Shown here piece by piece: positions 42,998-52,039 of a DNA stretch of 64,000 bases (positions are counted from its first letter, which is position 1; each line of letters starts with the position of its first letter). The notes beneath the pieces were generated by a model that was not told the DNA's origin, made no database searches, and saw nothing but the letters and a program-made list of their open reading frames with translations. The position numbers were made by a program, and so were the translations under genes. The DNA comes from Gloeocapsopsis sp. IPPAS B-1203. GTDB lineage: Bacteria > Cyanobacteriota > Cyanobacteriia > Cyanobacteriales > Chroococcidiopsidaceae. The stretch lies in contig NZ_PEIG01000002.1 in the NCBI RefSeq assembly GCF_002749975.1, forward strand, positions 124,001 through 188,000, written 5' to 3'.

Positions 42998-45214
42998 TTA
43001 TCTTCGAGTTGTTATTGGTGCATTCTCTTCTACAGGGAAGTTCTTTTCGTTGGCGTACTCCTTCGCATAGTAGAAGTAGCTGTCTGACTCGTTTTCGGGA
43101 ATAACACCATTGACAACTAAGCCGAGGACATTTTGTCCTGATCGCTCTAATGATTCTTTAGCAGCGGCTGCACTTGAAGAGTCTAAAACACCAGGGCGTG
43201 CTACTAATAAGACACCGTCTGTCATTTTACCGAGCGTCACAGCGTCGGCTGCTAAGACTAAGGGTGGTGCATCAATGATGACAAAGTCATAGTTATTTGT
43301 GAAGTATTGCACCAATGAAGCCATCCGTTTTGAGTCGAGAAGTGCCATAGGATTGGGAGGAATGACTCCTGCACTGAGCACGTCAAGTTTGGGGATCACT
43401 TCTGTAACGACTGACTCAAACTCAGCTTGCGAGACAATCACATCACTTAAGCCTGCAGCGTTTGTCAACTCCCAAATATGGTGTTGTAGCGGATGACGCA
43501 TATCTGCATCAATCAGTAATACCTTACGACCAAGCTGTGCCATAGCAGCAGCTAAATTAGCAGATACAGTTGATTTACCTTCCTTAGGAACAGCACTTGT
43601 GACAACAATCACCTTCAGTGGCTTATCTGAACTGAGAAATTTTAGGTTGGCTTGCAGCATTCTGTACGCTTCGCTGATTGGCGATCGCGGTAGATTAATC
43701 ACCGGTAACTCAGGAATTGACCATTCTTGATTGCGCCGGTTGGCATAACGTTTGCCAAAGTAAGGAATTGTCCCTAATAGCGTATAGTCGAGTCTTTCAC
43801 GAGCTTCGCGTAAGGTTTTAACAGAGCGATCGCTTAATTCTAAAATGCATATTGTCAGAATTGCTAATATGAGCGCTAACACGTTGCCTAACGCTAAAAT
43901 CATCGCTCTTTTGCGCACTGATGAGTTTTCTGGCACAGTTGCAAATTCAATGATTCGGGCATTACCCATATTTTGGTTTTCAGCTACCCTAACCTCTTGT
44001 AATCTCCGCAACAAAGTTTCGTAGGTAGATTGGGCAGCTTCTAAACGTCGCTCTAATTCTCTTTGCGTTTGTTCTAGTCGAGGCAGAACATTGATTCTTT
44101 GCCGGTAGGCACTATAGGTGTTATTAAGTGAACTGAGACGACTTGTTAAACCTAAGCGCTGAATCTCTGAATTAACATAATTTTGTGTCAATTCCTGCCT
44201 AATTTCACCCATTTGTAAATTGCTAGGTGAAACTTCCGTTGCTGCTGCATTGCCAATTGCGCCTTGTACGCGCTCTTCTAGTAAAGCTCTTAAGGCATCT
44301 CTCCGTTCCTGTAAGCCTAAAATTGTGGGATGCTCTCCAACAAAGCGAGTTTGCTGTACAGCTAATTCGGCTTCTACTTGTTGATATTCGGTGAGAACTT
44401 TTTGTATTCCTGGCGATTGATTCAGTGATGTGAGCGTAATTCCTTCTTGGGGATTCATGCCCACTTGTTGTTGAAGGGTTGCGCTTCTTGTTGTTGTGTC
44501 TGCGAGTTGAGCCTGAGTTTCCGTAATTTGATTTTCTAGTTGCTTGACTGCTGCTACTGCTGTTTTTGCCTCTTCATCTAAAGCAACAACTTGATTTTGT
44601 TCTTTGAATTGACGTAGTGCTAGTTCGGCTTGGCGCACTGTTGCTTCCATCTGCGGCAATTGCTTAGCAATAAATTCTCCTGCCGCCGATGCTTCGGCTC
44701 TGTTTGTGATGATATTGTTTTCTATGTACAAATTCATCACTTTGTTAACAACTGCAGCCGCTTCTTCTGGATCTTCGCTTTGATATGATATCTGCAACAC
44801 ATCTGTCAAAGGAACATTTTTGGCGTTAATTCTAGTTGCCAGTGTCTGTGGCTTCATTAATGAACCACCACTGTTTCTCAGATTAAGTGCCGAGATCGTT
44901 TTTTCTACAAAAGGTACAGAACGAATAATCTCTATTTCTGTATTCAGAGGATTGGCTTTTGTTGCTATTGCTTCTAGCTCGCCAACGTTAATATCTTTTA
45001 AACCAGAGATTGCTGTCGTTCTATCCGCTCTTTTGAATAAGAGCTTGCCTTGCGCTTCGTATACAGGTCGTTGCATTGAAGCAAGTGCGGCTGCTGCAGC
45101 TACAACAACGCCAAATACACCTGCCGCAGGTAACCAGCGCCGTTTTAAAATCAACCAAACTCTTTTCAGGTCTATGTCGATAGTTTCGTTAGATTCCATA
45201 ACCGACTCATCCAT
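42998..45214 (-). CDS. Wzc-like polysaccharide co-polymerase and tyrosine autokinase
   Basis: A 738-residue protein. An N-terminal Wzz domain (about 15-110) and a C-terminal Wzz/GNVR part end in a second membrane helix (about 435-455), with a long coiled coil between (about 190-410). The cytosolic BY-kinase domain has Walker A VPKEGKST (about 540-547), Walker A' VLLIDADMRHP and Walker B VIIDAPPLV, then a C-terminal tyrosine cluster YFYYAKEY. Such proteins set chain length and gate export of capsular or extracellular polysaccharide through cycles of tyrosine phosphorylation. First gene of the locus in transcription order. Confidence 0.94.
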   Translation of the reverse strand: MDESVMESNETIDIDLKRVWLILKRRWLPAAGVFGVVVAAAAALASMQRPVYEAQGKLLFKRADRTTAISGLKDINVGELEAIATKANPLNTEIEIIRSVPFVEKTISALNLRNSGGSLMKPQTLATRINAKNVPLTDVLQISYQSEDPEEAAAVVNKVMNLYIENNIITNRAEASAAGEFIAKQLPQMEATVRQAELALRQFKEQNQVVALDEEAKTAVAAVKQLENQITETQAQLADTTTRSATLQQQVGMNPQEGITLTSLNQSPGIQKVLTEYQQVEAELAVQQTRFVGEHPTILGLQERRDALRALLEERVQGAIGNAAATEVSPSNLQMGEIRQELTQNYVNSEIQRLGLTSRLSSLNNTYSAYRQRINVLPRLEQTQRELERRLEAAQSTYETLLRRLQEVRVAENQNMGNARIIEFATVPENSSVRKRAMILALGNVLALILAILTICILELSDRSVKTLREARERLDYTLLGTIPYFGKRYANRRNQEWSIPELPVINLPRSPISEAYRMLQANLKFLSSDKPLKVIVVTSAVPKEGKSTVSANLAAAMAQLGRKVLLIDADMRHPLQHHIWELTNAAGLSDVIVSQAEFESVVTEVIPKLDVLSAGVIPPNPMALLDSKRMASLVQYFTNNYDFVIIDAPPLVLAADAVTLGKMTDGVLLVARPGVLDSSSAAAAKESLERSGQNVLGLVVNGVIPENESDSYFYYAKEYANEKNFPVEENAPITTRR

Positions 45215-45392
45215 ATATAAAGGGCGGACAGGTGTGTTTTGCCAATCAGCCTATCGTAGCTTTTTAAAAATGTCCACGTTGTACTGTGATCAGCTATACA
45301 CTACTACTAGTAAATTTTCCCCGTAGATCTGTGTAGATAATTATACCAGCTTGTTGAATTGAGAATGGGGAAACATTAAAAGATCATTATAG

Positions 45393-46682
45393 TTAATTCA
45401 TTGCGTTTGTTTTTCTTGTACCTAAGACAAATTTACTCAAAATAAAGTAAAGGATGACAGCAGCGATAATACCGTTAATTGGCTTAATCCCTGGTGCAGT
45501 CCAGGCGATCGCTGAAGCGATAATATAGGCAATAATTCCTGCCCAGTTAAATGGTGGTTGGCTTTGATCTAACAACGGCGGAAATTGTCCTCTGCGTAAC
45601 AACCAATAATCTGCCATGACAACACCTCCGATGGGAGGAATAAATGTGCCAAGCAAAATCAAGTAAGGAACTAGTAAATTATAAATTCCACCCCAAGCCA
45701 AGACTAAAGCAACAGTAGCACCACCTAAAACAAAGGCAGTACGCTTGTTGGTGCGAAACATATGCGCGCCTGCTACTGAAAAAGCGTAGATAGTGTTGTC
45801 TTGTGTTGTCCACATATTCAAGAACAACAGGATTAATCCCCAAAACAGCAATCCTTGCTGAGCCATGACTTGTACAATATCTTCGTTGCCATAGACTAAG
45901 GCACAAAAAGCACCACTAAAAATCAGCAAGCCATTGGCAAGGAAAAAAGCAGCCAAAGTACTCCAAAACGCTGTACGCCCATTCTTAGCAAAACGACTCC
46001 AATTTGTCGCTTGAGTTCCACCAGAAACAAAAGTACCGACAATAATCGTAATCGCTTCGCCAATTCCGAGTTGCTCTGTGGGGACAATTGCTTGTAAACC
46101 AGTTAATCCACCAACATCTCTTGTGGCGATCGCCAAACTCCAAAACATTAAAATCAGCATTGCAGGAACAGCAATCCGACTCAGCCAATCCATCGCCTGA
46201 TAACCAATATAAGCAGTCGAGCAGAAAAAATATGTAAAGAAAAGGACAATCAACCAATTAAAAGAGCTGGGAACTCCAGCTAATTGATTGAGCAAGTCTG
46301 CCATTAATGCTGAACCCCAAGCATACCAACCAATTTGGGTAAAGCCCAACAGAAAATCTACCCAACGCGAGCCAACGCTACCGAAACTAAAGCGTGCCAT
46401 CAGCACCGTACTTAAGCCACTACGCGCGGCGATGTAGCTGAGTAATCCTGCATAAAGACCTAACAGTAGATTACCTGCCACAATCAAACTGACTAGTTCG
46501 GGAAAGCGAAATGCTGGACCAACTCTACCTCCGGCGAATAAAGTCCCAGAATATAACGTAAATCCAATTAGCAAAGGAGCCAATGACCAGATCGATTTAC
46601 GAGCGTCTAATGGGACAGCACTAAGAGGATAATCCTCATTAACTTGCGATCGCGCAGCTAGTTGTTCCGATGTGCTACTCAT
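45393..46682 (-). CDS. NCS1-family nucleobase permease (CodB-like)
   Basis: About 429 residues from ATG 46682 (MSSTSEQLAARSQ); an in-frame ATG four codons earlier is possible. About twelve membrane segments, with the NCS1 features LIVAGNLLLGLYAGLLSYIAARSGLS, FLLGFTQIGWYAWGSALMAD, TNWSRFAKNG and PPIGGVVMADYWLLRRGQ. The family imports cytosine, uracil, allantoin or purines. As last gene of a run with uracil phosphoribosyltransferase and URC-type enzymes, uracil or a related pyrimidine is the likely substrate; that is inference from context. Confidence 0.9.
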   Translation of the reverse strand: MSSTSEQLAARSQVNEDYPLSAVPLDARKSIWSLAPLLIGFTLYSGTLFAGGRVGPAFRFPELVSLIVAGNLLLGLYAGLLSYIAARSGLSTVLMARFSFGSVGSRWVDFLLGFTQIGWYAWGSALMADLLNQLAGVPSSFNWLIVLFFTYFFCSTAYIGYQAMDWLSRIAVPAMLILMFWSLAIATRDVGGLTGLQAIVPTEQLGIGEAITIIVGTFVSGGTQATNWSRFAKNGRTAFWSTLAAFFLANGLLIFSGAFCALVYGNEDIVQVMAQQGLLFWGLILLFLNMWTTQDNTIYAFSVAGAHMFRTNKRTAFVLGGATVALVLAWGGIYNLLVPYLILLGTFIPPIGGVVMADYWLLRRGQFPPLLDQSQPPFNWAGIIAYIIASAIAWTAPGIKPINGIIAAVILYFILSKFVLGTRKTNAMN

Positions 46683-46753
46683 GAAAAACCACAAATTATT
46701 GTTGCAGATATCTTGACTCTGAGTGGCATCTAAGAACCGTATTCTAGTTGACC

Positions 46754-46777
46754 AAGAAGGAGCGAGGAGCGAGGGGA
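46754..46777. repeat. GAGGAGCGAG-type repeat
   Basis: A purine-rich stretch in the spacer between the permease and the AllA-like gene; 46754-46771 is identical to 6054-6071 inside the GT39-like gene. Confidence 0.6.
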
Positions 46778-46930
46778 AAAGAAAAACATAGAGGAGAAAA
46801 GCAATTCTTTCAATCTTTTTACTCCCTCATCCCCTTGAATAGATGTAAACTAACTTGTGGAGACGGAAAGCTGCTTATACAGGCGAGCTGGGGGAGAAAT
46901 TTTTACAACTAACGGCTACCCACTCTTTGA

Positions 46931-46953
46931 CTCGCCCCTCGCCCCTCACTCCC
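46931..46953. repeat. GAGGAGCGAG-type repeat, opposite orientation
   Basis: CTCGCCCCTC-GCCCCTC-ACTCCC is a reverse-complement member of the same purine-rich repeat family. Confidence 0.5.
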
Positions 46954-46962
46954 ACACTCCTT

Positions 46963-47451
46963 TTAAACAATTTCCCATTCCAGATTCTCTTGCTGTAAGA
47001 AATTATAGGTATCGTGGTCGTTAATATTGGTATCGCTGAGTTCTAGATTATAGAAATCGACGAAATCATGGTCAAAGTAAGGTCCAGCGTGCCAAGTACC
47101 AATTTCTAACTTAATAAAGCGATCGCCTGGAACTCGAAAAGCGGCAACTTTATCAAGATCTGGCTGTGCAGTATCACAGGGAGGTGCAACTGCTAGTAAC
47201 CATTCTTTTCCTGCAAGTGAACCCAAACATTGAGTACATTTGAGGTGGCGGGTAATTGTCCGAAATTTACGCCCGCGTTGCTGCAAACGCATAATGTAGA
47301 AACGAGGAATGCCATTGTGCAATACTAACTGCGCATCAGTGGAGTCATAAGCTTTACCATCGCTCCTCGCAGAAATAACTTGACCATAAGACTGAAAGTT
47401 TTTTGGTGTAATCAATTGCGCGGTTAATCGGTTGAGCATAGCTGGAGCCAT
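46963..47451 (-). CDS. Ureidoglycolate-lyase-like protein (AllA family)
   Basis: A 162-residue cupin-fold protein of the AllA family: AQLITPKNFQSYGQVISAR at the start, ITRHLKCTQCLGSL, EWLLAVAPP and FIKLEIGTWHAGPYF. Classic AllA releases urea from ureidoglycolate in allantoin breakdown, but no other allantoin gene is here. Instead it sits 36 bases after uracil phosphoribosyltransferase in a URC-type cluster, where a urea-releasing step on a ribosyl-urea intermediate would be needed. That role is inference. The CTQC pair differs from the ERHPLGSQ of enterobacterial AllA as I remember it. Confidence 0.82.
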   Translation of the reverse strand: MAPAMLNRLTAQLITPKNFQSYGQVISARSDGKAYDSTDAQLVLHNGIPRFYIMRLQQRGRKFRTITRHLKCTQCLGSLAGKEWLLAVAPPCDTAQPDLDKVAAFRVPGDRFIKLEIGTWHAGPYFDHDFVDFYNLELSDTNINDHDTYNFLQQENLEWEIV

Positions 47452-47487
47452 AAGTTAAACTCCTTTGTTAATCGCGATCGTCATGAC

Positions 47488-48123
47488 TCAGTGAGTGCCA
47501 AACAGGCGATCGCCTGCATCACCTAATCCTGGCACAATATATCCACGATCATCTAATTTTTCGTCAATCGCAGCCGTATATATTGGGACATCAGGGTGTT
47601 GTTCGTGAAGGTACTCAATTCCTTCGGGTGCAGCAAGCAAGCAAACAAACTTCAAAGAAGCAGGATTCGTTGACTTCAAGCGCGTCACTGCAGCAGCAGC
47701 AGAGTGTCCTGTTGCTAGCATCGGATCGACAACTAACATATCGCGCTTATCGACATCGTGGGGTACTTTGAAATAGTATTCAACTGCGATCAGTGTTTTG
47801 GGGTCACGGTACAAACCAATATGTCCTACTCTAGCCGAAGGCATTAACTCTAACATTCCATCTAAAATTCCCTGCCCCGCTCTTAAAATTGAGACAATTA
47901 CCAGCTTTTTATCTGGTGCGAGTACTGGCGCTTCCATTGTCGCTAAAGGCGTTTTAATCGTTTCAGTTTTGAGTGGGAAGTCTCGTGTCACTTCATAAGC
48001 TAACAACAAGCTAATTTCTTTTAAGAGGGTGCGAAATTTGGCTGTACTCGTTTCTGCTTTACGCATTAGCGTTAGCTTGTGTTGAATTAAGGGATGACTA
48101 ATGACAGTTACTTCAGCTTGCAT
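47488..48123 (-). CDS. upp: Uracil phosphoribosyltransferase
   Basis: A 211-residue protein with the PRPP-binding loop [16 protein letters not shown] (about 128-143), the start [17 protein letters not shown] and the uracil-binding C-terminus [16 protein letters not shown]. It converts uracil and PRPP to UMP. In the URC route this is the entry step of uracil breakdown as well as salvage. It lies between the URC4 gene (62 bases upstream) and the AllA-like gene. Confidence 0.97.
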
Positions 48124-48185
48124 AAGGCGCTCAGATCAGGTTTTGAATAAATGGGATCATCTGTCTAATTGTCAATTGCCAGCCC

Positions 48186-49412
48186 CTAAAATACAGTGCC
48201 ATCGCTGTCAATTTGAATCGGCGGAGTACCATTGCTTCTTAACTGTGCAGCCATTTTACGTCCTGCACTCCACGTTCCACCTTGGAGAACTTTAACCAGC
48301 GGTAATTCCTCAGCATTCATCCCCAACTTTGAACGGATGGTATCAGCAATATAATCCAATGAAATCACCGTTAAAGCTCGCCACTCAACAATGATTTCTG
48401 AATCTACTGAATGTCGGTGTTGTAATACGTCTGAATGTTTAGGCTGCAACAGTCCGAGATCGAGACATAAACCACCATTGCGGTACTCTGGCAATCCAGT
48501 TAAAGCATCTAGTCCAGTAATTTCTAAGCCTAGTTCTTGCAGGGGTTCTAGTAAAGAATAAGTTAGCCACTGCGAAAGTTTGTGAAAAGGTACTAATCCT
48601 GAACTCAAATTTTGAGTATTAGCGATCGCTGAGTGATGCCAGACATCACCGAGATTTATGCCAGCAATTTGTATACCTGTCCAAATCTCGCCTAATCCTT
48701 TTAACACTGTGCTAAAAACTGCCTCAGCCGCTATTTTCCCATGAGTCGCTTGTGCTAACAAGTAGTTGACTAATCCTCCAGGACGAGGGTTGTCATCGCC
48801 AAACAGTTGCGGACAATCGACCATTGTTTGTCCTAATCGACGCAACAATTGCAATCTACCAGGTAAACCTACTAAGGGGTTTTGATCGCTGATCTGAAAA
48901 CCATCAGCAAGAGCGTTTTCTGTCAGTTTTTGCAAGCCCAACGCATTTGCTTGTAACTTGTCTGTATGACTTGAAAAAATCCCTTGACAAAACATTTGAA
49001 GACTGGCAACAGCTAGCCCTTCTGAGCGGCTGAACGTGAAATCAGTACCAGGTTCATGATACTGCCAGACTGCTCCTGCACCAGCATCAAGTAAGACACT
49101 GACAACAACTAAATCAAATTTTGCCTGTGCTTTGGCAATGGGTGTTAATTTTGATAATTGTTGCTCTAGTTGTGCTAAACGAGTCCCGATTTGAAAATGA
49201 CGCCAACGGCTATGGAAAGGAATTTGTAAATCTGGATAATCTTCACGAATCACCTGAATGACATAATCTGCCACTCGTTCTAGCTGCGTCAAATCGCACC
49301 GAAAATGCTCTAGACGATTCTCACACCCTAAATCGAACAAAATGCCACAGCGATCGCGAATTGCTTTAGCTGAACGTAAATACGCAATTTCTTGTTTTTT
49401 CTCCCCCTGCAT
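48186..49412 (-). CDS. URC4/Urg3 family protein (DUF1688)
   Basis: A 408-residue protein matching the DUF1688/URC4 family: AIRDRCGILFDLGCENRLEH at the start, VPFHSRWRHFQIG-like PFHSRWRHF, VSVLLDAGAGAVWQYHEP, FSRSEGLAVASLQMF, NPLVGLPGRLQLLRRLG, and ALTGLPEYRNGGLCLDLGLL. URC4 is required for uracil breakdown in the yeast Lachancea kluyveri and its homologues cluster with uracil genes in bacteria; the exact reaction has not been settled as far as I know. It begins 26 bases after the URC1-like gene, so the two are surely one operon. Confidence 0.9.
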   Translation of the reverse strand: MQGEKKQEIAYLRSAKAIRDRCGILFDLGCENRLEHFRCDLTQLERVADYVIQVIREDYPDLQIPFHSRWRHFQIGTRLAQLEQQLSKLTPIAKAQAKFDLVVVSVLLDAGAGAVWQYHEPGTDFTFSRSEGLAVASLQMFCQGIFSSHTDKLQANALGLQKLTENALADGFQISDQNPLVGLPGRLQLLRRLGQTMVDCPQLFGDDNPRPGGLVNYLLAQATHGKIAAEAVFSTVLKGLGEIWTGIQIAGINLGDVWHHSAIANTQNLSSGLVPFHKLSQWLTYSLLEPLQELGLEITGLDALTGLPEYRNGGLCLDLGLLQPKHSDVLQHRHSVDSEIIVEWRALTVISLDYIADTIRSKLGMNAEELPLVKVLQGGTWSAGRKMAAQLRSNGTPPIQIDSDGTVF

Positions 49413-49438
49413 CCTCCACTCCTACTACAATCGCAAGA

Positions 49439-50695
49439 TTAATCTAATCCCCGCCCTTTAATTTCAGCTAAAGTTGTTGTATCGGCGACTTCTCCGTCGG
49501 TATAGTATCCCGCTGCTTTTTTCGCTTCAATTTCTACCCGTGCATCTTGAGGAATCAACTCCTCTGGAATCGGGACACGCTCAACGATTTCAATTCCAGA
49601 CTGGGTAACTGCATCGTATTTTAAATTACTCATTGATACCATGCGATCAATGCGCGTAATCCCTAACCAGTGCAAGACATCAGGCATCAGTTCTTGAAAG
49701 CGCATGTCTTGTACGCCAGCAACGCATTCAGTACGGGCAAAATAAGCATCAGCGCGATCGCCTCCTAATTGACGTTTACGAGCGTTATAAACTAGAAACT
49801 TTGTCACTTCTCCTAAAGCGCGTCCTTCTTTGCGGCAATAGATGATGACACCAGCACCTCCCTCTTGGGCAGTTTGCACGCATACTTCGATACCATGAAC
49901 TAAATAGGGACGACACGTACAAATATCAGAACCAAAAACATCAGAACCGTTACACTCATCATGAACTCTCACGGCTAGAGGTTTATTAGGATCTGCGATC
50001 GCTGCCACATCTCCCACAATGTATACGGTAATACCGCCAATAGGTGGTAAAAATACTTCTAAATCAGACCGCGTGACTAACTCTGGAAACATACCACCAG
50101 TTTGCTCAAATAAGGCACGACGTAAATCGGCTTCAGTTATGCCAAAGCGTTTGGCAATTCCTGGTAAGTACCACACAGGATCAATTGCAGCTTTCGTGAC
50201 AACTAGATCGCCACGTAGTTTAAGAACTTCACCATCAACGCGCAATCGTCCGGCTGTTACTGCGTCTTGTAACTCCGGCATATTAATATGAGCTTTAGTG
50301 ATTGCGATCGTGGGTCGGATATCATAACCTTGCTCGTAGTAGGACATAAAGACTTCTCCTACCATTGCTCCGAACGGATCGAGTGAGACAATTTTTTCTC
50401 GATCTGCCCAACTTGGATACGGTCCAATTTGCTCTACAGGAGATGTGTTTGTCAGATCTGCACGATAGTCAGATTGCAGGACTCCTCTAGCAACTGCCAA
50501 AGCACGGTAAACTGCATAACTACCTGAATGAGTACCAATAACGTTGCGATATGCTGGATTTGTCAATGTCGCGATAATTGGACCGCGATTAGTGGGATCT
50601 GCGCTTCCCCAAGAAATTGGAATCGGTTTAGGTCCAAAATTACTGGGATGTGATGTGAGCACAATATGCCGAGGAACGTGCTTTTTGTTTGGCAT
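49439..50695 (-). CDS. URC1-type GTP-cyclohydrolase-II-like protein (uracil catabolism)
   Basis: A 418-residue protein. The C-terminal half (about 225-400) has the GTP cyclohydrolase II core with zinc Cys residues in ECNGSDVFGSDICTCRPY and GVIIYCRKEGRALGEV. It departs from RibA: the usual GRGIG reads GRALG, and the terminal guanosine-binding NNP segment reads MSNLKYD. The N-terminal half (VLTSHPSNFGPKPIPISWG and TNPAYRNVIGTHSGSYAVYR) is specific to URC1 proteins. It is thought to open the pyrimidine ring of a uracil nucleotide. First gene of the cluster. Confidence 0.9.
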   Translation of the reverse strand: MPNKKHVPRHIVLTSHPSNFGPKPIPISWGSADPTNRGPIIATLTNPAYRNVIGTHSGSYAVYRALAVARGVLQSDYRADLTNTSPVEQIGPYPSWADREKIVSLDPFGAMVGEVFMSYYEQGYDIRPTIAITKAHINMPELQDAVTAGRLRVDGEVLKLRGDLVVTKAAIDPVWYLPGIAKRFGITEADLRRALFEQTGGMFPELVTRSDLEVFLPPIGGITVYIVGDVAAIADPNKPLAVRVHDECNGSDVFGSDICTCRPYLVHGIEVCVQTAQEGGAGVIIYCRKEGRALGEVTKFLVYNARKRQLGGDRADAYFARTECVAGVQDMRFQELMPDVLHWLGITRIDRMVSMSNLKYDAVTQSGIEIVERVPIPEELIPQDARVEIEAKKAAGYYTDGEVADTTTLAEIKGRGLD

Positions 50696-51099
50696 AGTTA
50701 TGAAGATAGTGTTTTAAATTAAAGCTATTGGCACTCAGCAATTAGCGTTTAGCTAACTGCTAATCACTTTTTTAGGTTTTATCTGTATAGCTGCGGCTGA
50801 GAACCGCTCAGTTCTTCTGTGTCAAACTGACATTGGTTTAAGTTCATCATGATAGAACTTTTGTCAAGGAGTTGCCAAGCAGGTATTCATCCTGTTTTGG
50901 TTTAAAGTTGCGACACTGTAAATCAGCAGGGCAGAGTGAAAGATGATGATTGATAGTGACTAAAGATTCTGAGATTGCTATATGCAAAAGCGATCGCATT
51001 TTAACTTGATGCACTCAAGCCGCGATCGCTCAATTTGTATTTAGGAGGGGTTTAAAACCACTTACGAGGTTCAAAATCTCTACATTCCTGACCCCTGCT
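50696..51099. other. Intergenic region upstream of the URC cluster
   Basis: 404 bases with no gene. It contains two inverted repeats: CTGAG-5-CTCAG (50797-50811) and TGTCA-3-TGACA (50820-50832), 100-140 bases before the URC1 start. Confidence 0.55.
50797..50832 (-). promoter_or_regulatory. Candidate operator pair upstream of URC1
   Basis: Two short perfect inverted repeats lie next to each other; the second overlaps a TTGACA on the minus strand that could serve as a -35 element. No canonical GTA-N8-TAC NtcA site was seen here. Confidence 0.35.
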
Positions 51100-51609
51100 T
51101 TAAATATCTTGTTCGCCTAACTCGCCCGTCATATAGTCAAACGGCTCATCTACAAAATTTGTGTCATTAACGCCTGCGGCTGCGACTTGCTCTTTAACAA
51201 TATTCTTCATGATTTGAATACCTTGAATCGTTGGACCGATTGGTACTCCTAAAGAATTGTAAGTTTCGCGCAAACCTTGTAACACTCTTTCGTCTAAAAC
51301 ATCCATACTGCCTGCAACTAATGCATAGGTAGCATAGCGTAGGTAATAGTCCATATCGCGCAAGCAAGCGGCATATCGCCGTGTTGTATAAGCATTACCC
51401 CCAGGGCGAATCAGTTCTGGTAGTTCGTCAAACAACTGAGAACCAGAACGTTTGACGATTGCAGCTGCATTGCCATTAATTGCCGCTGCGGCTTGGACTC
51501 TTGCTGTACCTGTTTCAAAATAGGATTTTAGCCGTTCTATTGCATCTCGGTCAAAGTACCGACCTGCTACATCATAAGTTCCAATTAAAGTTGTTACCGC
51601 GTCCCGCAT
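51100..51609 (-). CDS. apcF: Allophycocyanin beta-18 subunit
   Basis: 169 residues from ATG 51609 (MRDAVTTLIGTYDVAGRYFD), the normal ApcF length; GGAG lies 9 bases upstream. An in-frame start 36 codons earlier would be unlike any phycobiliprotein. The chromophore Cys is in TTRRYAACLRDMDYYLRYATYAL. The insert SGSQLFDELPELIRPGGNAY and the long C-terminus (FVDEPFDYMTGELGEQDI) distinguish ApcF from ApcB. It is a core-terminal subunit of the phycobilisome, passing energy to the photosystems. Single gene. Confidence 0.95.
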   Translation of the reverse strand: MRDAVTTLIGTYDVAGRYFDRDAIERLKSYFETGTARVQAAAAINGNAAAIVKRSGSQLFDELPELIRPGGNAYTTRRYAACLRDMDYYLRYATYALVAGSMDVLDERVLQGLRETYNSLGVPIGPTIQGIQIMKNIVKEQVAAAGVNDTNFVDEPFDYMTGELGEQDI

Positions 51610-52039
51610 GAAATTGATCTCCGAATTCCTATTTGTGGTTTGATATTCTTGAGTTGATTTTTTGTACCTAGTATTTATGACTATGGTGCCTAAAGTATAG
51701 AAATAGCGATCAGGCAATTTACTCGCTACTTATGGATTCTATGCCAATTTGACTACCGATTTGAGATTGTAAATCTGAGATTTTATAAATGATGTTATTT
51801 TATGCTGCATCTTTTGATTGTCTTAGTTGGTGATTTTCAACTCCACAAGTCGTATTGTTAAGCAAAGGGAGTCAATCTCACAATCTTTCGCAAAGAATCC
51901 TAATAGAATCAGTAAAAACGATTTTTTGTATAATAAACTACAAAACCGCCCTTACTCTATCCTTAGGATGATCCAAAAGTGGCACAGTTTTAGTCTGAAC
52001 CTAATAGCGGCAGCAGGATAAAAAAGTTAAGGAGTTACC
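51610..52039. other. Divergent promoter region of apcF and glnA
   Basis: 430 bases between apcF (minus) and glnA (plus). The NtcA-type promoter lies at 51928-51969. No gene seen. Confidence 0.6.
51928..51969 (+). promoter_or_regulatory. NtcA-activated promoter of glnA
   Basis: GTA-TAATAAAC-TAC (51928-51941) is a perfect GTA-N8-TAC NtcA box. Exactly 22 bases later TAGGAT (51964-51969) fits the TA-N3-T -10 element. This is the canonical NtcA class II promoter, so glnA should be induced under nitrogen limitation. Confidence 0.9.

Follow-up and report, generated by a model that had tools for sequence, protein, structure and literature searches.

A probable URC-type uracil-catabolic cluster with AllA-like and permease additions in the cyanobacterium Gloeocapsopsis sp. 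IPPAS B-1203

The five-gene cluster and its URC core

In the cyanobacterium Gloeocapsopsis sp. IPPAS B-1203, five genes lie in a row on the minus strand at positions 45393-50695 of the window, the 64,000-nucleotide stretch of DNA that was analysed. They encode a URC1-like enzyme, a URC4/DUF1688 protein, a uracil phosphoribosyltransferase (UPRT), an AllA-like protein, and an NCS1 nucleobase permease (Table 1). All five open reading frames are intact, and checking them confirmed the coordinates and the intergenic gaps of the first-pass annotation, which are 26, 62, 36, and 280 bases in order from URC1 to the permease. The permease likely begins at the ATG at 46682, with a TTG at 46694 given as an alternative start in the open reading frame listing. 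A second genome of the same genus (L035; loci carry L numbers and sampled genomes G numbers) has the identical five genes in the identical order. Judged from its sequence, the cluster is probably a URC-type uracil-catabolic set serving nitrogen scavenging, in which the URC core is of a known kind and the AllA-like and permease additions are a new variation on it.

Table 1. Features of the cluster and its leader in the window.
Feature	Position	Strand	Length (amino acids)	Description
URC1	49439-50695	-	418	First gene of the cluster; ring-opening enzyme like GTP cyclohydrolase II, of the UTP-cyclohydrolase type by homology
URC4/DUF1688	48186-49412	-	408	Predicted ribotide N-glycosidase, Qng1-like fold
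UPRT	47488-48123	-	211	Dedicated cluster copy of uracil phosphoribosyltransferase
AllA-like protein (AllA1 subfamily)	46963-47451	-	162	Probable urea-releasing ureide lyase
NCS1 nucleobase permease, CodB-like	45393-46682	-	429	Length from the likely ATG
Leader between apcB and URC1	50696-51099	-		Intergenic; promoter-like TTGGCA-18-TATCAT at 50878-50849

The family identities originally proposed for the five genes hold, with scores far over the curated cut-offs: URC1 reaches 762 bits on the NCBIfam model NF005536 (cut-off 403), URC4 522 bits on PF07958 (cut-off 25), UPRT 275 bits on TIGR01091 (cut-off 208), the AllA-like protein 44.5 bits on PF04115 (gathering score 23), and the permease 490 bits on the cytosine permease equivalog NF008241 (cut-off 326). 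The labels of the two added genes must nevertheless be narrowed, as the NCS1 protein is of the cytosine-permease type and the AllA-like protein is accepted by PF04115 but by neither of the NCBIfam ureidoglycolate-lyase models that it matches.

URC1 matches PF12471 (289 bits) and has a C-terminal GTP_cyclohydro2 domain (PF00925, 62.5 bits). Its best matches among solved structures are 7ej3 and 7eev, which align with residues 9-418 (410 residues) at 628 bits, while the RibBA structure 4i14 reaches 47 bits. Although the PDB file labels them GTP cyclohydrolase II, we take 7eev and 7ej3 to be the UTP cyclohydrolase structures of Zhang et al., who reportedly described that enzyme in ACS Catal in 2021. 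All 71 URC1 sequences examined keep a three-cysteine pattern, EC-x(9,12)-C-x-C. This pattern, which binds zinc in RibA and is shared with 4i14, and the GTP_cyclohydro2 domain would suit a URC1 that is a moonlighting or duplicated RibA for riboflavin synthesis, in a cluster without a catabolic role. Such an identity is highly improbable. URC1 scores 61.5 bits on the ribA model, under the cut-off of 205.85, and a separate RibBA (261.5 bits) is encoded elsewhere in the genome. Moreover, 69 of the 71 sequences read RKEGRALGE where the genome's own RibBA has QEGRGIG, and URC1 co-occurs strictly with URC4. URC1 was thus rejected as a RibA paralogue, and the GTP-cyclohydrolase-II-like gene falls outside the true RibA proteins, as judged by family models and motifs with no tree built.

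Across a phylum sample of 386 genomes, DUF1688/URC4 was found in 33. URC1 (E ≤ 1e-60) is present in 31 of these and in none of the 353 URC4-negative genomes, the exceptions being G334 and G354, the latter with URC1 fragments near a broken URC4. Most URC4-positive genomes (26 of the 33) have an additional UPRT scoring at least 249 bits, a line set after the scores were known; in the 13 URC4-negative genomes that were searched, none reaches it, the best score being 243.8. Besides its cluster copy, the window genome encodes another full-length UPRT on contig 14 (C14:68271-68894, 225.5 bits).

A set of 80 named URC4 loci, divided by record title into 54 cyanobacterial and 26 others, has URC1 nearby in 70. 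The URC1-URC4-upp trio, with the same genes in the same order, also occurs on plasmids of Azospirillum, Pseudoroseomonas, and Gordonia (proteobacterial and actinobacterial), where the records call the middle gene a URC4/urg3 family protein. These clusters differ from the one studied here in that AllA1, the subfamily of the AllA-like protein, is found in none of the 26 non-cyanobacterial loci, and in the Azospirillum cluster the place of the NCS1 permease is taken by genes for a BMP-type ABC transporter and an amidohydrolase. Since the URC core is a known and widespread set, finding it in a cyanobacterium is nothing out of the ordinary. No paper on URC in cyanobacteria was found among the literature matches listed.

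The URC genes look decayed in four loci (L039 in G039, L056 in G354, L053 in G334, and L048 in G203), where URC4, URC1, or UPRT is interrupted by stops or present as fragments. In G334, URC4 is partial and no URC1 match passes the above threshold. The pathway may have been lost repeatedly.

The URC4 fold and the proposed route from uracil to urea

URC is one of four modes of pyrimidine degradation, and the part of it that leads from uracil to ribosylurea is described as uncharacterised; in the published yeast scheme, URC1 and URC6 yield 3-hydroxypropionate and ribosylurea, and URC4 degrades ribosylurea to urea (PMC7530994). Lachancea kluyveri (URC1, URC4, URC6) and fission yeast (urg1-urg3) resemble the present cluster in bringing together a URC1-type gene, URC4/DUF1688, and a UPRT, which are clustered in fission yeast, and in releasing urea that is then used (PMC7530994, PMC2174524, PMC3869809). 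The cyanobacterial set differs in that urea would go to urease, not to the urea amidolyase (URC3/URC5) of yeast, and in its added AllA-like gene and CodB-like permease.

The most useful outcome of the analysis is a predicted function for URC4, that of a ribotide glycosidase resembling Qng1. A fold search gave Qng1/DUF2419, the queuosine-5′-monophosphate N-glycosidase, as the predicted fold among the matches listed, and a profile comparison with Qng1 covers 300 columns (P 1.8e-6, probability 89.7). URC4 proteins contain an invariant Lys/Glu pair (K278 and E309 in the window protein), the Glu standing at the Asp position of Qng1. The titles of Qng1 entries in the PDB give the mutants K199C and D231N, which presumably affect the catalytic pair. 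URC4 is longer than the solved Qng1 chains (408 versus 315-344 amino acids) at 14-18% identity, and its substrate would be ribosylurea-like rather than queuosine. The URC4 profile found no match among PDB sequences, Qng1 emerging from the fold search alone. As URC4 lies below the cut-off of the Qng1 model PF10343, it is better said to work like Qng1 than to be Qng1. No paper linking URC4/DUF1688 with Qng1/DUF2419 appeared among the matches listed in open-licence literature. With a Qng1-type fold and a conserved pair of Lys and an acidic residue, DUF1688, a domain of unknown function, would become a testable activity in yeasts and bacteria alike.

Qng1 itself (PF10343) occurs in 5 of 194 phylum-sample genomes, in two families outside the class of the window genome (L279-L284: G044, G007, G026, G016, G001), and in one of them it is in two pieces. 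In L279 and L281, Qng1 is directly followed by a frame that we presume, from its sequence, to be tRNA-guanine-transglycosylase-like.

In the proposed route, a nucleobase (uracil, or cytosine that is then deaminated) would enter through the NCS1 permease, and the dedicated UPRT, assigned to its family by sequence, would convert uracil to UMP. After phosphorylation, URC1 would open the pyrimidine ring by hydrolysis, as its homology to the solved UTP cyclohydrolase suggests; the products would be a ribosylurea phosphate and a three-carbon acid, which in yeast is found as 3-hydroxypropionate. Acting like Qng1, URC4 may then hydrolyse ribosylurea phosphate at its N-glycosidic bond, a reaction suggested by its fold and residue pair, to give urea and ribose phosphate. 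The urease encoded elsewhere in the genome (alpha subunit at C21:39891-40244, 193 bits) would convert urea to ammonia. Urease is found in 32 of the 33 URC4-positive genomes, this one included, and over the cut-off in 208 of the 386 genomes of the whole sample. RutA, which marks a rival uracil route, passes its cut-off (TIGR03612, 498.3) in none of the 33; the score is 436.5 in G332 and at best 27.5 in the window genome.

The first-pass annotation had added an importer of uracil, whereas sequence comparison places this nucleobase permease with cytosine permeases, both by the equivalog model and by its nearest solved structure, the cytosine permease 7qoa (228 bits). From its sequence, import of uracil by the cluster permease is plausible. 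The same permease family directly follows UPRT in two of the 80 named loci, both from Symploca (L237, L244), and a related permease lies near the UPRT-AllA1 pair of G060. Among the named cyanobacterial loci, 12 of 54 have genes for PF02653 ABC permeases within reach, and six of these 12 also encode a PnrA-like binding protein. Taken together, the URC core of the uracil-catabolic interpretation is well supported by family scores and co-occurrence, and its permease and AllA-like additions are weaker.

That the genome retains a separate UPRT could also suit a cluster for damage or overflow control of pyrimidine nucleotides, in which URC1 and URC4 clear excess UTP and urea is incidental. This is improbable given a nucleobase permease within the cluster, the PF02653 genes near a share of the cyanobacterial loci, and the near-universal urease of URC4-positive genomes. 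In addition, the yeast with the URC pathway grows on uracil as sole nitrogen source (PMC7530994).

The AllA-like protein between pyrimidines and purines

The AllA-like protein scores 36.1 bits on the NCBIfam AllA equivalog (ureidoglycolate lyase), far below the cut-off of 230, and likewise falls far below the cut-off of the second ureidoglycolate-lyase model, whereas a plasmid AllA adjoining allantoicase passes NCBIfam AllA with 257.8 bits in the same library. Three other AllA1 proteins scanned also fail these models, as does the one protein scanned from a second, smaller group. That the protein is a possible urea-releasing enzyme, as first proposed, is weakened by its place in a divergent subfamily and by the many PF04115 matches in URC4-negative genomes. 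PF04115 matches 94 of the 386 genomes, comprising 29 of the 33 URC4-positive and 65 of the 353 URC4-negative ones. The positive sequences split into AllA1, a large cyanobacterial group that includes the window protein (92 distinct sequences from 91 genomes), and the smaller group of longer proteins (7 genomes). G193 and G321 have a PF04115 match but no AllA hit with the window protein in their loci and stand outside the counts; G030 has its AllA-like gene about 7 kb away from UPRT, beyond the stretch retrieved, and is not among the 91.

AllA1 shares the R-H, Q, and W-H core of the solved AllA ureidoglycolate lyases (PF04115; PDB 1xsq, 1xsr, 1yqc, 2bdr), which it matches weakly (best E 0.013). 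H69, W120, and H121 are common to all sequences compared, and Q74 to all but one. Threonine at position 67, found in 89 of the 92 AllA1 sequences, replaces a Glu present in all 11 comparison sequences (the seven of the smaller group and four plasmid proteins, two of these adjoining allantoicase), so that the E-R-H of AllA reads T-R-H in AllA1. Further residues of the subfamily are K114 (90 of 92), G123 (92 of 92), and E137 (91 of 92).

In 8 of the 91 genomes, from six families (G000, G005, G172, G300, G008, G060, G116, G213), URC1, URC4, or UPRT is found no more than about 6 kb from AllA1. AllA1 follows UPRT in G060 and G116 and adjoins URC1 in G213, in all three on a contig other than that of URC4. 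By our estimate, chance would place AllA1 near one of three genes in genomes of about 6 Mb in fewer than 1 genome in 100. Among the named loci, AllA1 is within reach of URC4 in 5 of the 54 cyanobacterial ones, one of them cut by an end. XdhC/MobA-like genes are its neighbours in 4 of the 91 genomes (G019, G199, G251, G338), in three of them together with xanthine dehydrogenase. In 6 genomes (G019, G024, G074, G338, G340, G382) it stands next to genes for PnrA-type nucleoside ABC transporters; no telling neighbour was seen for the remaining AllA1 genes. The nearness to these three kinds of genes links AllA1, over part of its range, with the use of nucleobase nitrogen, and by sequence its ureide could stem from pyrimidines or purines. 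The association of PF04115 with URC4 over the 386 genomes (Fisher P 7e-16) is no proof of shared function, because lineage acts as a confounder among such related genomes.

Two compact purine clusters, L139 (G338) and L118 (G199), contain xanthine dehydrogenase, XdhC, a MobA-like protein, and the second AllA-like group. On the far side of AllA1, L139 also has a gene for a PnrA-type nucleoside transporter.

On the pyrimidine side, the AllA-like protein might release urea from a hydrated intermediate of the route or from a ureide by-product, for example 3-hydroxy-3-ureidopropanoate, the homologue of ureidoglycolate that is one carbon longer; this is a guess, which we hold as tentative. The wider proposal, that URC4 is a Qng1-fold ribotide N-glycosidase acting on ribosylurea phosphate and that cyanobacteria recruited AllA1 with its T-R-H motif for dedicated urea release from an open-chain ureide or ribosylurea, is somewhat unlikely. 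If the AllA subfamily does act on a URC ureide, an extra urea-releasing step would serve the recycling of pyrimidine nitrogen by cyanobacteria in poor waters. AllA1 was rejected as an obligatory part of URC on the PF04115 counts given above.

Alternatively, the protein could be the ureidoglycolate lyase of purine (allantoin) breakdown, sharing an operon with URC since both yield nucleobase nitrogen. The conserved His, Trp, and Gln residues, the XdhC/MobA-like and PnrA-type neighbours, and a PuuE allantoinase in the same genome (548 bits) are in keeping with this, but the puuE gene is isolated among unrelated genes, and PF04115 finds nothing in four of the URC genomes that have PuuE (G129, G157, G255, G262). 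Allantoicase was found in none of 80 of the 386 genomes (33 URC4-positive, 35 other PF04115-positive, and 12 PF04115-negative), although a route from allantoate via an amidohydrolase was not searched. The allantoicase search was silent in its standard controls and found the enzyme in both plasmids annotated with it. Purine clusters hold the smaller, different AllA-like group, which has a PuuE-like neighbour in 6 of its 7 genomes (five of these neighbours score 147-160 bits on the PuuE model, below the cut-off of 424.6) and a xanthine dehydrogenase neighbour in 3, and T67 departs from the Glu of every comparison sequence. The purine assignment appears somewhat unlikely.

Several observations weigh against the URC-type uracil-catabolic interpretation or its parts. 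If URC4 itself frees urea, the main route does not need AllA1; many URC-negative genomes have AllA1-type genes, and 4 of the 33 URC-positive ones lack PF04115. None of four URC4 proteins passes PF10343 (cut-off 25; best 14.7 bits), the window protein giving no match, and the Asp of Qng1 is replaced in URC4. The permease model points to cytosine rather than uracil, a high-scoring UPRT is missing in 7 of the 33 URC4-positive genomes, and G338 is URC4-positive without a urease match. Finally, no exact GTAN8TAC site lies upstream of URC1 in the window genome.

Nitrogen control and surroundings of the cluster

In other cyanobacteria this NtcA-type pattern is frequent: 23 of 45 cyanobacterial loci have an exact GTAN8TAC site in the 400 bases before URC1 (shuffle mean 5.1), compared with none of 24 non-cyanobacterial loci and 30 of 450 other genes in cyanobacterial loci. 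One and the same palindrome is found in most of the 23, which are apparently closely related. The window has no such site upstream of its URC1, and the pattern was not taken as evidence for this genome. The sites (in loci among L193-L218, L239, and L240) are 139-160 bases away from URC1 in 19 of the 23 and often lie between URC1 and a divergent gene for a TPR protein. Judging by the palindrome, NtcA or another dyad-binding regulator may use it. Regions upstream of AllA1 are not enriched in GTAN8TAC (4 of 91, versus 61 of 923 control genes). The TPR protein, of 164 amino acids, lies near URC1 in 25 of the 54 cyanobacterial loci, mostly divergently (e.g., L203:1927-2421), and has no obvious role in uracil breakdown.

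Upstream of URC1 in the window are the allophycocyanin beta gene (apcB) and a divergent glnA. The promoter-like site in the leader is weak evidence, as positions 45200-51200 contain 12 such sites against a shuffle mean of 10.8. The window holds 13 GTAN8TAC sites in total, not above the chance mean of 10.5, one of which (51928-51941) precedes glnA by about 100 bases, a position at which an NtcA site would be expected.

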